Shown: positions 10,149-55,416 of the stretch, in pieces
Layout: the number at the start of each line of letters is the position of its first letter
How positions within the stretch are numbered: the stretch's first letter is position 1
DNA from: Kitasatospora sp. NBC_00240
Lineage (GTDB): Bacteria; Actinomycetota; Actinomycetes; Streptomycetales; Streptomycetaceae
Length of the DNA stretch: 64,000 nucleotides
NCBI RefSeq assembly: GCF_026342405.1
Contig: NZ_JAPEMU010000001.1
Span: forward strand, 1,922,001 to 1,986,000
Direction of reading: 5' to 3'
Notes under the pieces: generated by a model
The model's input: the letters and a program-made list of their open reading frames with translations, nothing else
Told to the model about the DNA's origin: nothing
Databases searched by the model: none
Program-made: the position numbers and the translations under genes

Positions 10149-10185
10149 ATGCGCTGCCGGTTGTGAATCAACCGTGCTGTCCGGG

Positions 10186-10257
10186 TGGGCGATACTGGGA
10201 TCGAACCAGTGACCCCTTCGGTGTGAACGAAGTGCTCTCCCGCTGAGCTAATCGCCC
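10186..10257 (-). tRNA. tRNA-Val (CAC), copy 1
   Basis: 72 nt. Acceptor stem 10251-10257 with 10187-10193 and discriminator A at 10186. The anticodon stem CTTCG/CGAAG encloses loop TTCACAC, giving anticodon CAC for GUG codons. CCA is not encoded. It is identical in its body to copy 2 at 10468-10539. Confidence 0.96.
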
Positions 10258-10409
10258 GGGCAACGAGAAGAAGACTAGCACCATTCGGGGGCCGCCCCGC
10301 AACCTGCCCGCCCTCCGCAGCTGGCGGACCCGCAGAACTCGCGCACCGCAGGGAAGATGACTGCGCCTCAGTCGGATTCACCGCCGGCGGACCGGGATTA
10401 TCGGAAAAA

Positions 10410-10450
10410 GACGTGGAGCCCCGGCCATTTAATGGCCGGGGCTCCACGTC
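10410..10450 (-). terminator. 19-bp perfect hairpin followed by T5
   Basis: Bases 10410-10428 pair perfectly with 10432-10450 around a TTA loop. On the minus strand the stem is followed by CTTTTT's T-run (five Ts), a textbook intrinsic terminator, rare in this genome type. It ends the transcript of tRNA-Val copy 2. Confidence 0.9.
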
Positions 10451-10467
10451 TCACCAATGCATTCCGG

Positions 10468-10539
10468 TGGGCGATACTGGGATCGAACCAGTGACCCCTT
10501 CGGTGTGAACGAAGTGCTCTCCCGCTGAGCTAATCGCCC
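10468..10539 (-). tRNA. tRNA-Val (CAC), copy 2
   Basis: 72 nt, acceptor stem 10533-10539 with 10469-10475, discriminator A at 10468, anticodon CAC. The body matches copy 1. It has its own terminator at 10410-10450, so each copy is a separate transcription unit. CCA is not encoded. Confidence 0.96.
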
Positions 10540-17273: not shown

Positions 17274-17345
<72 letters not shown>

Positions 17346-17385
17346 CTCGATCCCCTCGGGGTTCGCCGTAGTACCGCCTCACCAG

Positions 17386-17457
<72 letters not shown>

Positions 17458-17497
17458 CTCGGACCTCTCGGGGTTCGCCGTAGTACCGCCTCACCAG

Positions 17498-17569
<72 letters not shown>

Positions 17570-17579
17570 CAGTTCGACC

Positions 17580-53082: not shown

Positions 53083-53338
53083 CGGCGTTCCGTCGACGGG
53101 CCGCCGGGGAGCGGGCGTGGAGATCGGCCGTGAATCGGCCCTGCGGGGGTGCGGGTGGTGCGCCTGCCGCCGACCCCGCGGGCGGCCTGACGAACGCACC
53201 GAGGGGCTACGGGACCTGTGCTCCCGAACGGCGGGAACGGTCCCGGACGGGGCGGCGGTCCTGAGGACTCCTGAACGGTCCTGGTGGGGCCTGCTCGGGC
53301 ATGGTCGCGCGCCGGCCCCGGACATGGTGACGGGACCC

Positions 53339-53358
53339 GGGAGCGGTATCCGGCTCCC
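53339..53358 (-). terminator. Possible terminator after the tRNA-like RNAs
   Basis: Six-base inverted repeats (53339-53344 with 53353-53358) about 45 bases after RNA 2 on the minus strand. Weak, with no T-tract. The stretch 53083-53338 holds nothing I can name. Confidence 0.35.
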
Positions 53359-53401
53359 GAGCCCCTCGCTGCCACCCAATTGCTTGCGCCAGCACGTTTA
53401 A

Positions 53402-53508
53402 GAGCGGTGGATCATTCTCATAGCGTCGTGCTCTGCCTTTGAACTACCGTGCCATGGAGAGGCACAGACGGGACTTGAACCCGCATCCGATGCTTTTGGT
53501 CCACCCTC
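53402..53508 (-). ncRNA. Permuted tRNA-like RNA 2
   Basis: Order on the minus strand: 5' end strand (53508-53500), inner stem strand (53493-53488), T-arm with loop TTCAAGT (53484-53468), 3' acceptor strand CTGTGCC (53467-53461), 7-base loop (53460-53454), 5' acceptor strand GGCACGG (53453-53447, seven pairs, one G-U), U8 A9, D-arm with GTTC/GAGC and loop AAAGGCA (53444-53430), inner stem strand (53428-53423, one C-A mismatch), and the 3' end strand TCCACC-G-CTC (53411-53402), which pairs over nine positions with the 5' end, with one bulge. U8, A14, G18G19 and U48 are in tRNA positions. No anticodon and no CCA are visible. It is not an ordinary tRNA: the RNA ends lie where the anticodon loop would be. 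Confidence 0.75.
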
Positions 53509-53535
53509 GGTCGATCTGGCGCTCGGCGGCGAATA

Positions 53536-53665
53536 CTGAGACTTGAGCGAGAATCTGAGTCTGATCGGGGCTGCCTCTACCCTTGGGCCACCCCGGCGTG
53601 TCGTGCCGGGGGGAGGATTCGAACCTCCACCGCACCCCTTCTTCAGCTTCAACGTCAGTTTCAGC
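53536..53665 (-). ncRNA. Permuted tRNA-like RNA 1
   Basis: The core is 53638-53567. Order on the minus strand: GGGGT (53638-53634), GCGGT as variable loop, T-arm GGAGG-TTCGAAT-CCTCC (53628-53612), 3' acceptor CCCCGGC (53611-53605), 7-base loop (53604-53598), 5' acceptor GCCGGGG (53597-53591, seven perfect pairs), T8 G9, D-arm with loop containing GGGT (53588-53573), A26, and GCCCC (53571-53567), which pairs with GGGGT as the anticodon-stem equivalent. Outside it, repeated CTGA (5' side) and TCAG (3' side) blocks can form a long helix of 4-bp steps with internal loops. Tertiary-contact bases of tRNA are conserved. Ends are estimated from pairing. Confidence 0.75.
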
Positions 53666-53714
53666 TTTGCGCTTTCGCGCACCCCTCGCGCTCAACGAGG
53701 GGGGTTCATGGGGG

Positions 53715-54446
53715 CTACCCGAACAGGTAGCCGAACACCGCTTCGCCGACCCGCTGGTCGGTGACCTCGGTGCCGTTGGCCTCCTCGCGGGCGAACTGCA
53801 CGGCCTGGCGGAGCTTCTCCACCCGCTCGACCAGCTCGTTCACCCGGCGGGCCGGCAGGGCGCCGGAGAACTTCACGGTCGTCCAGTAACCGACCGGGAT
53901 GTCCTCGTAGTAGACCTCGACCTGGGCCGGGTGCTTCTCGGTCGCCTCGGCCTTCACATGGTTGCGCGGGACCTTCTTGGTGCGGATGGTGCGCACCGGG
54001 TCGGTCTTCCAGGCGTCGGTGGAGGCGTCCAGGCTCCAGGCCTCGGAGGCGTCCAGCACCGGCAGCTTGCGGACGAAGGTGTGCAGGTCGGTGAGCTGCT
54101 TCTCCAGGAAGAGCAGGTACGTGACGGGCACGTCGGCCAGCAGCGTACGGCCCTCCAGCACGACGTCGGCGCGGGCCGAGCAGTTCGCCCAGTCCTTGGT
54201 CGCCGTGACGTCGAACAGCCGGGTGAGGGTGGTGGCGGTGGTCCGCAGGATGTCCTCGGCCTGGGCCTGCACCCGGGTCGACTCGGGCGGCAGCTGCTCG
54301 CCCTCCTCGTCCTTGGGCTGGTACGTCCGGGAGATCCCGGCCAGCAGAGCGGGCTTCTGCAGGCTCTGGTGAGCCTGCGTCAACTCTTGGAAGGACTTGG
54401 ACTTGACGCCCTTTTCGACGGCGATGATCTGATTCAGCTTTGCCAC
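53715..54446 (-). CDS. Conserved protein of unknown function next to tRNA-like RNAs (possibly DUF7873)
   Basis: 243 residues from a GTG at 54446; no ATG lies nearby. I recall close homologues in other streptomycetes and tentatively connect it to a domain of unknown function (DUF7873), but cannot check. The protein is soluble and charged, with no signal or membrane segment: a helical N-terminus (GVKSKSFQELTQAHQSLQKPALLAGISRTY in two steps), a YLLFLEKQLTDLHTFVRKLPVL helix near residue 110, basic RTKKVPRNHVKAEATEKHPAQVEVYYEDIPVGYWTTVKFSG in the middle third (shown here in parts), and FGYLFG at the end. No Shine-Dalgarno is present; TAGCTT seven bases upstream suggests a leaderless mRNA. RNAs 1 and 2 follow 50 bp downstream on the same strand. 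Confidence 0.75.
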   Translation of the reverse strand: MAKLNQIIAVEKGVKSKSFQELTQAHQSLQKPALLAGISRTYQPKDEEGEQLPPESTRVQAQAEDILRTTATTLTRLFDVTATKDWANCSARADVVLEGRTLLADVPVTYLLFLEKQLTDLHTFVRKLPVLDASEAWSLDASTDAWKTDPVRTIRTKKVPRNHVKAEATEKHPAQVEVYYEDIPVGYWTTVKFSGALPARRVNELVERVEKLRQAVQFAREEANGTEVTDQRVGEAVFGYLFG

Positions 54447-54579
54447 GCTCAGGAAGCTACCAGTCGCGGCGTCGTTCTGTCGTTCGAATATCCGACCGCC
54501 TGCGGCGACCGGGCTCCCGCGCCGGGAACGACCGCGGGGGCGGCCCGTCCGGACCGCCCCCGCGTCACAGCCGTCGGGC

Positions 54580-55416
54580 TCAGCTGTTGATGGCGTAGCT
54601 GTCGCCGTAGACCTTCCACTTGAGCGGCGGGTTCAGGTCGAAGTTCTTGGCGTTGAGGAAGACCCGCTGCTCGGTGTCGACGCGGCTGGTGTCGGAGTGC
54701 GCCTCCTCGGTCTTCATGGCGGCCTTGCGGGCGTCCAGGAAGGCGTTGAGGTAGGTGGTCTCGTCGCCGCCCTGGGCGGGGGTCTTGGCCTTCTTCATGG
54801 CGGCCTTGCGGATGCCGCCGAAGCTGACCGAGTCGGTGCCGGGGCCGTGCATCACGATGGCGTCGTAGTAGGCGAACTGGCCCAGCGCGCGCAGGCCGTC
54901 GGCCTTGGCCTGGCTGACCGCGGGGGTGAAGTAGACGCGGTCGCGCTCGTCGTTCTGGGCGGCCTGGAAGACGGTGTCCTTGGCCGCGGTGGCCCAGTCC
55001 TTCTCGAAGGCGGTGCCGAGGCCGGTGTGCGACTCGGTGCCGTTGACCTTCTTCAGGGCGGGGAGGTACTTGGCCAGGACGTTGCCCGGCTTGATGTCGG
55101 TGTAGTGCTGGACCAGGTCGAGCATGTCGCCGGTGCCGGAGCAGAAGCCGATGATGCCCGCGGTGTAGCCGCGGCCATCACCGATGTCCTCGATGTACTT
55201 GTACTGTGCCTTCCAGTCCAGCGAGGAGTTCTCCGCGCTGGACACCAGCTGCATGGCGATGTCCTTCTTGTGCGCGTCGTCGAGGCCGACCGCGGCGGCG
55301 GACACGACGGTGGCCGTGGCGGCCGCGTGGCTGACGCTCGCGGCGGCGATGCTGGCCGGCGCGGCGACCAGGATCGCGGCGAGGGCTATCCGAACGGTCC
55401 GGTTCTGGGGCTTCAT
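54580..55416 (-). CDS. csn: Secreted chitosanase, GH46
   Basis: 278 residues from ATG 55416 with ACGGAG seven bases upstream. A Sec signal peptide (MKPQNRTVRIALAAILVAAPASIAAA) ends near VSHA-AAT. The mature enzyme shows the GH46 catalytic pair: Glu in SSAENSSLDW and Asp in IEDIGDGRGYT, equivalent to E22 and D40 of the Streptomyces N174 enzyme, and GIIGFCSGTGDM. It cleaves chitosan outside the cell with inversion. A perfect 19-bp palindrome lies upstream and fits the CsnR operator, so induction by chitosan oligomers is expected. Confidence 0.96.
   Translation of the reverse strand: MKPQNRTVRIALAAILVAAPASIAAASVSHAAATATVVSAAAVGLDDAHKKDIAMQLVSSAENSSLDWKAQYKYIEDIGDGRGYTAGIIGFCSGTGDMLDLVQHYTDIKPGNVLAKYLPALKKVNGTESHTGLGTAFEKDWATAAKDTVFQAAQNDERDRVYFTPAVSQAKADGLRALGQFAYYDAIVMHGPGTDSVSFGGIRKAAMKKAKTPAQGGDETTYLNAFLDARKAAMKTEEAHSDTSRVDTEQRVFLNAKNFDLNPPLKWKVYGDSYAINS

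Follow-up and report, generated by a model that had tools for sequence, protein, structure and literature searches.

A conserved, predicted RNA element with permuted, anticodon-less tRNA-like modules and a discriminator-matched 3' hairpin adjoins DUF7873 genes in bacteria and phages

We analyzed a 64,000-nt stretch of the Kitasatospora sp. NBC_00240 genome (GCF_026342405.1, contig NZ_JAPEMU010000001.1, positions 1,922,001 to 1,986,000 of the forward strand; here called the window) and found a conserved element directly downstream of a gene for a DUF7873 protein. Comparison across loci establishes at the level of sequence that this element has permuted tRNA-like modules, covarying stems, tandem hexamers, and a 3' hairpin with a loop base complementary to a discriminator base (N73:N'), and that it is linked to DUF7873 in bacteria and phages. 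With a probability of roughly 0.6, we propose that the element is one RNA with permuted, anticodon-less tRNA modules and a self-docking 3' hairpin, which would work with DUF7873 as a tRNA-mimicking ribonucleoprotein (RNP).

The RNA-like region covers about 370 nt of the minus strand (approximately 53332 to 53702 in window coordinates) and lies directly 3' of the DUF7873 gene (53715 to 54446, minus strand, 243 amino acids), whose product is the predicted partner based on its Pfam match, locus association, and AlphaFold2 model. The initial annotation of this region missed the DUF7873 neighbor, which is immediately upstream on the same strand, and also the 3' hairpin that matches the discriminator base. 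Read 5' to 3' on the minus strand, the element begins with two small hairpins recognized from the sequence (53682 to 53702 and 53668 to 53681), followed by a run of tandem A-R-N-Y-T-N-like hexamers (AAGCTGAAACTGACGTTGAAGCTGA, 53643 to 53667) and by unit 1 with its flanking strands at the anticodon-stem position (53567 to 53638). A conserved core, delimited by eye when loci were compared, separates the units (53508 to 53559, a CTCAG..CTCGCTC..CTCAG element plus GATCGACCG). Unit 2 (53423 to 53493) sits on an anticodon-position stem and on a basal stem, whose 5' strand (53500 to 53508) pairs with its 3' strand (53402 to 53411). The element ends with the 3' hairpin (53332 to 53365), which was located by a hairpin search across loci and carries the loop CGGATACC at 53345 to 53352. 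The span originally marked, 53402 to 53665, holds both units and omits the 5' hairpins and the 3' hairpin. A plus-strand open frame of 335 amino acids (53583 to 54590), antisense to DUF7873 and unit 1 and containing GEDSNLHRTP, is likely a spurious frame over the T arm. Elsewhere in the window there are three tandem tRNA-Val(gac) genes with equal scores (17274 to 17570) and two tRNA-Val(cac) genes, also with equal scores (10184 to 10539).

Both units run in the order T arm, acceptor 3' strand, short linker, acceptor 5' strand, D arm. In unit 1, the T arm (53612 to 53628, loop TTCGAAT) leads into CCCCGGC (53605 to 53611), the 7-nt linker ACGACAC, and GCCGGGG (53591 to 53597). In unit 2, the T arm (53468 to 53484, loop TTCAAGT) leads into CTGTGCC (53461 to 53467), the 7-nt linker TCTCCAT (53454 to 53460), and GGCACGG (53447 to 53453), and the two acceptor strands pair with one G-U; the first linker base, U at 53460, is the discriminator N73. 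The initial annotation had described two permuted tRNA-like bodies on this strand with these stems, acceptor pairings, T-loops, and linker lengths, and the sequence confirmed each of them. It was also right that an anticodon is absent, as the flanks lead into the conserved core, and that this is not a spliced tRNA gene, as ARAGORN called no tRNA over the RNA in the window. The idea of two tandem RNAs whose ends meet at the anticodon did not hold up. The flanking strands occupy the place of an anticodon stem and continue into the larger conserved element, and for this reason we read the units as what they look like in sequence, modules of one larger RNA.

The pairing in the permuted units is not due to chance, as judged by sequence comparison. 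Acceptor pairing was kept at 99.2% in unit 1 (34 distinct sets, 90 loci) and 99.5% in unit 2 (56 distinct sets, 108 loci), compared to 67.8% and 63.1%, respectively, when partners were dealt among loci, percentages that are biased upward because the unit scan itself demanded at least 6 of 7 acceptor pairs and at least 4 of 5 T pairs. We also scored 28 pairs in a MAFFT alignment of 52 sequences (A3; the window copy plus 51 of 75 non-redundant segments from 107). Standard pairs formed in 91.2% of the cells of A3, versus 67.3% after shuffling and 38 to 45% with partners slid by 1 to 3 columns; all five helices contributed, and 0 of 500 shuffles, which ignore phylogeny, reached the score. By helix, 99.5% of the cells were paired in the acceptor stem, 99.6% in the T stem, 77.2% in the anticodon-position stem, and 86.0% in the basal stem (helix 1), where all six pairs had changed on both sides. 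Covariation of the acceptor helices was the test on which the initial annotation had staked its claim, and the covariation was found, with 27 of the 28 pairs changed on both sides. In the minimum-energy fold of the window RNA alone, unit 1 formed 12 of 12 T and acceptor pairs and unit 2 formed 0 of 12; unit 2 is therefore supported by comparison and not by the single sequence. The folding energy was modestly better than those of shuffled sequences (z = -2.1; 0 of 100 as good).

Of 568 DUF7873 loci found in named genomes, we retained the best 80. A unit-2-type permuted unit lay within 900 nt 3' of the DUF7873 stop codon in 80 of these best 80 of 568 loci, with both units present in 65 and unit 1 absent in 15; the stretch where unit 1 would lie held a T-loop-like string in 2 of the 15 and none in 13. 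A third "unit" at one locus (L041) proved spurious. A covariance model of unit 2 plus its flanks (R1), trained on 52 sequences, scored the window's own copy, a member of the training set, at 136.8 bits. A set of 150 Streptomycetaceae genomes contained 94 DUF7873 loci in 92 genomes, and 91 of 91 R1 matches of at least 64 bits in this set were on the same strand just downstream of DUF7873; these matches are not independent, since R1 was trained on relatives that are partly of the same species, and adjacency was no part of the training. The 91 strong matches began between -26 and 265 nt past the end of the DUF7873 match. An adjoining R1 match was present at 93 of the 94 DUF7873 loci, scoring below 50 bits at two of them, and the sole exception, a divergent DUF7873 paralogue (L193), showed one unit-1-like module by eye. 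At L127, L131, and L155, DUF7873 was present and no unit was found. Weaker R1 matches are widespread, occurring at E 0.01 in 174 of 396 genomes of the phylum; the weak-match locus that we examined (L178) consists of tandem tRNA genes, and two weaker matches in the Kitasatospora genome itself adjoin Ro60 genes by coordinates.

The DUF7873 protein matches PF25283 with 403.3 bits (E = 5.5e-121, cut-off 27) and has at least 7,533 relatives in databases. Its AlphaFold2 model has a pLDDT of 91.1, and structure searches gave no convincing fold match, so the structure suggests no DUF7873 function. The standout BFVD row was A0A7M1RW91 from uncultured phage cr118_1 (probability 0.99, TM 0.45/0.58, E 0.079). 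PADLOC, PHROGs, and NCBIfam gave no match to DUF7873 to E 1, and a search of open-licence PubMed Central papers, preprints excluded, gave no paper on DUF7873 and, among the titles listed, none on the RNA.

The hexamer run is the predicted protein-binding part of the element. At least two tandem A-R-N-Y-T-N-like hexamers stood upstream of the first unit in 112 of 116 loci (8.6% when shuffled) and at least three in 81 of 116 (0.3% when shuffled), with the pattern chosen after looking at the loci. In one frame, the run gives Lys/Arg codons that alternate with Leu codons (KLKLKL), and single-base shifts occur in it at L034 and L093. The repeats are the likely protein site.

Comparing sequences also revealed a new feature, a 3' hairpin with a GGN'TA loop whose base N' complements the unit 2 discriminator. 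In the window, GG in the loop is followed by A (53349), the complement of N73 of unit 2 (U at 53460). A hairpin with a GG-N-TA loop and a stem of at least 6 bp followed the last unit in 100 of 111 loci (45 distinct stems), where the GGNTA form was fixed by the search rule and N73 had no part in the choice of hairpin. When stems of at least 8 bp were scored, including two Vibrio phage units (L158 and L159) and one other unit 2 (L123) added by hand, N73 was complementary to N' in 104 of 104 loci, 100 by Watson-Crick pairing and 4 by G-U, and 7 of the 111 loci had no GGNTA hairpin under this rule. The combinations were U73 with GGA (64 loci), U73 with GGG (4), G73 with GGC (34), and A73 with GGU (2). 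Reduced to 41 distinct sets of N73, loop base, and stem, 37 were Watson-Crick and 4 were G-U, versus a mean of 19.4 and a maximum of 29 Watson-Crick sets in 10,000 shuffles that ignore phylogeny. The same loop base compared with N73 of unit 1 as a control gave 4 of 84 Watson-Crick matches, or 6 of 84 with G-U. A blind choice of the strongest GG-bearing hairpin left N73 complementary in 105 of 111 loci. The six misses had picked other hairpins; a fitting one was found under the first rule in L065, L095, and L121 and by eye in L066 and L156, and none was found in L160.

The bases that follow the discriminator can also take part in such a contact. Unit 2 has C at position 74 and T (U in RNA) at position 75 in 80 of 80 genome loci (the best 80 of 568), and both can pair with GG; in 31 other loci, position 74 is C in 28 and U in 3, and position 75 is C in 19, U in 10, and G in 2. 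Vibrio phages D472 and K479, which are identical in 426 of 507 aligned columns, differ by a G73-to-A73 change that is matched by a C-to-U change in the loop. The A73 carriers are Klebsiella phage FBKp24, phage Ziko, and Vibrio phage K479, and the G73 carriers are Vibrio phage D472, RHph_Y1_11, L129, L135, L137, and a group of Streptomyces loci. These scattered changes argue against a single inherited change, though the shuffles ignore phylogeny.

The hairpin rule and the hexamer pattern were formed after viewing the first loci, and only the N73 test was repeated on fresh loci. The fresh set consisted of 141 new loci from two more viral scans, with L323, L324, L327, L330, and L338 dropped as repeated contigs. 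In the first run, 11 of 48 loci were non-complementary, with unit 1 mistaken for a unit 2 that had a long linker or an odd arm. We inspected 8 of the 11 mismatch loci and changed the rule once, after that run, to exclude unit-1-like D arms. With this changed rule, N73 was complementary in 62 of 64 scored loci (51 Watson-Crick and 11 G-U), and 43 of 56 distinct sets were Watson-Crick, versus 20.9 on average and 32 at most after shuffling. The two misses (L197 and L202) look like spurious units and were counted as misses. Among the other loci of the 141, a strict GGNTA hairpin was missing at 56 that had a unit 2 candidate, 8 offered too little sequence for a judgment, 8 contained a unit-1-like unit alone, and 5 had no unit. 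Loci with C73 (L160 and, in the fresh set, L290, L301, L302, L322, L332, and L335) had no complementary GGGTA hairpin and depart from the docking rule; their unit 2 end reads CCCA, and this class may use another contact. The sequence N73-CCA is encoded in 17 of 31 unit 2 copies and 12 of 25 unit 1 copies from phages, viral contigs, and one Nonomuraea locus, and unit 2 encodes CCA in 0 of the 80 genome loci (best 80 of 568).

We detected DUF7873 by tblastn in 73 phage records, with hosts in Vibrio (29), Gordonia (12), Rhizobium (12), Klebsiella (7), Serratia (6), Arthrobacter (3), Pseudanabaena (2), Rhodococcus (1), and Microcoleus (1). Permuted units were present within 500 nt 3' of DUF7873 in 11 of the 13 phage loci examined, two Vibrio loci having been judged by hand. 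Both units lie just 3' of DUF7873 in Racecar, Phendrix, NiceHouse, Pam2, KpLz-2_45, and FBKp24, and only unit 2 was found in Vibrio phages D472 and K479 (by hand) and in Rhizobium phages RHph_TM21B and RHph_Y1_11. In Ziko, the scan found unit 2, and inspection by eye showed the acceptor and D arm of a unit 1 whose T stem is poor. PA-SR01 (L163) has two permuted units about 600 nt from DUF7873, and the Microcoleus phage locus (L155) has no permuted unit by DUF7873. The copies in Racecar, Phendrix, NiceHouse, and RHph_TM21B are placed among several tRNA genes. We used 22 of 30 viral loci; L124, L128, L133, L136, L138, and L147 were omitted as near-duplicates or unexamined, and L148 and L149 are partial. 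In the Microcoleus phage, a HEARO RNA with a downstream gene follows DUF7873 (L155, 3450 to 3659) in place of the permuted RNA. In Klebsiella phage FBKp24 (L162, 3013 to 3097), an annotated suppressor tRNA (TTA), which is also an ARAGORN call, overlaps the permuted RNA and is probably a misreading of it. Downstream in L139 (4641 to 5060), there are three more permuted-looking T-acceptor-acceptor-D arrangements, which are perhaps tandem tRNAs.

YrlA, a Y RNA with such a module, binds Ro60 and PNPase, and a YrlA-type Y RNA in a Ro60 (Rsr) particle, with Ro60 supplied from elsewhere in the genome, is an explanation that we consider improbable. The likeness to YrlA (RF02553) that the initial annotation pointed out is real in architecture, in that both have a permuted T arm/acceptor/D arm module on a basal stem without an anticodon and both suggest tRNA mimicry; YrlA is treated in the review PMC8394870. 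The Rfam YrlA model, proposed earlier as a check, gave matches of only 28.5 and 20.4 bits in the window, far under the cut-off of 69 bits, and 27.9 to 37.6 bits over the RNA in five related loci, also under it. The model gives higher scores (39.3 and 30.9 bits) to ordinary tandem tRNA genes of this genome, so the YrlA score mostly reflects tRNA-likeness. The initial annotation also stated that a Ro60 gene is lacking, which is correct for the neighborhood of the RNA and not for the genome. Two TROVE matches lie at 2.53 and 4.58 Mb on the contig that carries the permuted RNA at 1.975 Mb, and no Ro60 gene adjoins the RNA. Near 2.532 and 4.574 Mb, YrlA-like permuted RNAs lie directly upstream of these Ro60 (TROVE) genes, two of them in tandem near the first; they too score under the cut-off (43.4, 38.1, and 35.6 bits). 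A Ro60 system with its own YrlA-like RNAs is therefore present but separate. Moreover, the neighbor of the strong R1 matches is DUF7873 in 91 of 91 cases, and the permuted RNA differs from YrlA in having two modules, hexamers, and a discriminator-complementary 3' hairpin. We rejected YrlA identity on the Rfam cut-off (28.5 and 20.4 versus 69 bits) and the neighbor gene; we treat the permuted RNA as a separate family, whose modules in all likelihood work like a YrlA-type tRNA mimic.

Two further readings take the tRNA-like domain as functional in translation. In a tmRNA-like RNA, one or more charged tRNA-like domains would be combined with a short reading frame, here the KLKLKL repeats. As in two-piece tmRNAs, which are also permuted, the tRNA-like domain has a loop in its acceptor stem and an anticodon-position stem that leads into a larger RNA; CCA is encoded in many phage copies, and unit 2 of a Klebsiella phage (L156) gave a weak beta_tmRNA match (24.8 bits, E 0.00057, cut-off 84). 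However, the alanine identity pair G3-U70, the charging signal of tmRNA, occurs in only 1 of 90 unit 1 loci and 2 of 111 unit 2 loci, and the one-base shifts at L034 and L093 would break the frame; no tag frame is clearly supported. In addition, the permuted RNA has two tRNA modules and a different neighbor gene, no tmRNA model reaches its Rfam cut-off in the window, and Phendrix has a separate tmRNA. We rejected tmRNA identity on the identity pair and the Rfam result and regard a tmRNA-like function as very unlikely. Processing or splicing into working tRNAs is more improbable still. The tRNA-type T, acceptor, and D arms and the frequent N73-CCA would suit it, and permuted tRNA genes of algae and archaea likewise have the 3' half before the 5' half and a linker between the acceptor strands, but here the RNA is far larger, there is no sign of joining, and the strands flanking each unit enter the conserved core with no anticodon loop between them. 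Joined ends would give no anticodon arm, and this candidate was rejected; of 20 related loci, one (L162) had an ARAGORN tRNA call in the RNA region.

The two other alternatives concern what the element does. It is doubtful that it is a 3' regulatory element of the DUF7873 messenger, in which the tRNA modules would do no more than provide stable structure or sense the tRNA pool. Its fixed position and strand after the DUF7873 gene would suit this role, but compensatory tRNA-type stems, encoded CCA, and a discriminator-complementary loop appear to exceed what is needed to stabilize a 3' end. A decoy or inhibitor of tRNA-attacking nucleases, used by phages in counter-defense and kept by hosts against tRNA damage, would be a special form of the RNP that we propose and is a possible, tentative reading. 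The phage copies among several tRNA genes (Racecar, Phendrix, NiceHouse, and RHph_TM21B) are in keeping with it, and with no anticodon loop the RNA could not be cut there. DUF7873, however, has no PADLOC match to E 1, and a plain decoy leaves the self-docking of the end unexplained.

The docking itself has precedents with separate tRNAs. According to PMC7583486, the bulge UGGN of the T-box antiterminator holds the tRNA end by pairing N73-C74-C75 with G-G-N', and PMC9433436 describes how the RNase P L15 loop (G292 to U294) holds the 3' RCCA of pre-tRNA. The GGN loop of the permuted RNA is complementary to N73-C-Y in the same manner, with N' following N73 and the rule holding in cis only, and it shares with L15 the three-base logic in which the discriminator pairs with the base after GG. 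It differs from the T-box in that the tRNA end is in the same RNA, no codon-reading stem was seen, the loop closes a 3' hairpin, the loop base that corresponds to the first U of UGGN is not constant (T, C, or A), and the RNA comes after its gene (3' of DUF7873), whereas the T-box comes before. It differs from L15 in being intramolecular, in using a hairpin loop, and in having a third base that changes to follow N73. Rfam models for T-box and RNase P RNA gave no match to E 5 on 53300 to 53720.

In the RNP that we propose, the transcript of the element would be one RNA that carries one or two permuted modules and forms a particle with DUF7873, which probably binds the A-R-N-Y-U-N repeats. Unit 2 would fold back on the 3' hairpin and place its acceptor end in the loop there, N73-C74-Y75 pairing with G-G-N' in the manner of a tRNA end held by the T-box bulge or RNase P L15. 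Docking could take place before any cleavage of the RNA or could follow end processing of the tRNA type: the encoded N-C-U of the genome loci could dock without CCA, and the encoded N-CCA in 17 of 31 other loci would also fit such processing. The particle may act as a decoy or a sensor toward tRNA-processing, tRNA-charging, tRNA-modifying, or tRNA-damaging enzymes. This role is our first choice, given that the modules retain T, D, and acceptor arms, are without an anticodon, and travel among phage tRNA genes, and it would suit phages that carry the RNA among their tRNA genes.

We give even odds to a broader claim, that DUF7873 and an RNA with an anticodon-less permuted tRNA and its own T-box/L15-like receptor loop make up a new class of RNP common to bacteria and phages, in which docking of the unit 2 N73-C-Y (or CCA) makes a switch complete in itself, one that would report on the tRNA-end trimming, charging, or cutting machinery or compete for it. 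Recognition of a tRNA end by a GGN loop is known with a separate tRNA in the T-box and RNase P; here a single RNA contains both sides, and they covary, so that the docking can be tested directly. If this is true, a widespread RNA-protein system has been passed over by standard tools, with no Rfam model reaching its cut-off and no ARAGORN tRNA call over the RNA in the window. The element would give the DUF7873 family a concrete predicted RNA partner, and it would do the same for the element in phage tRNA clusters.
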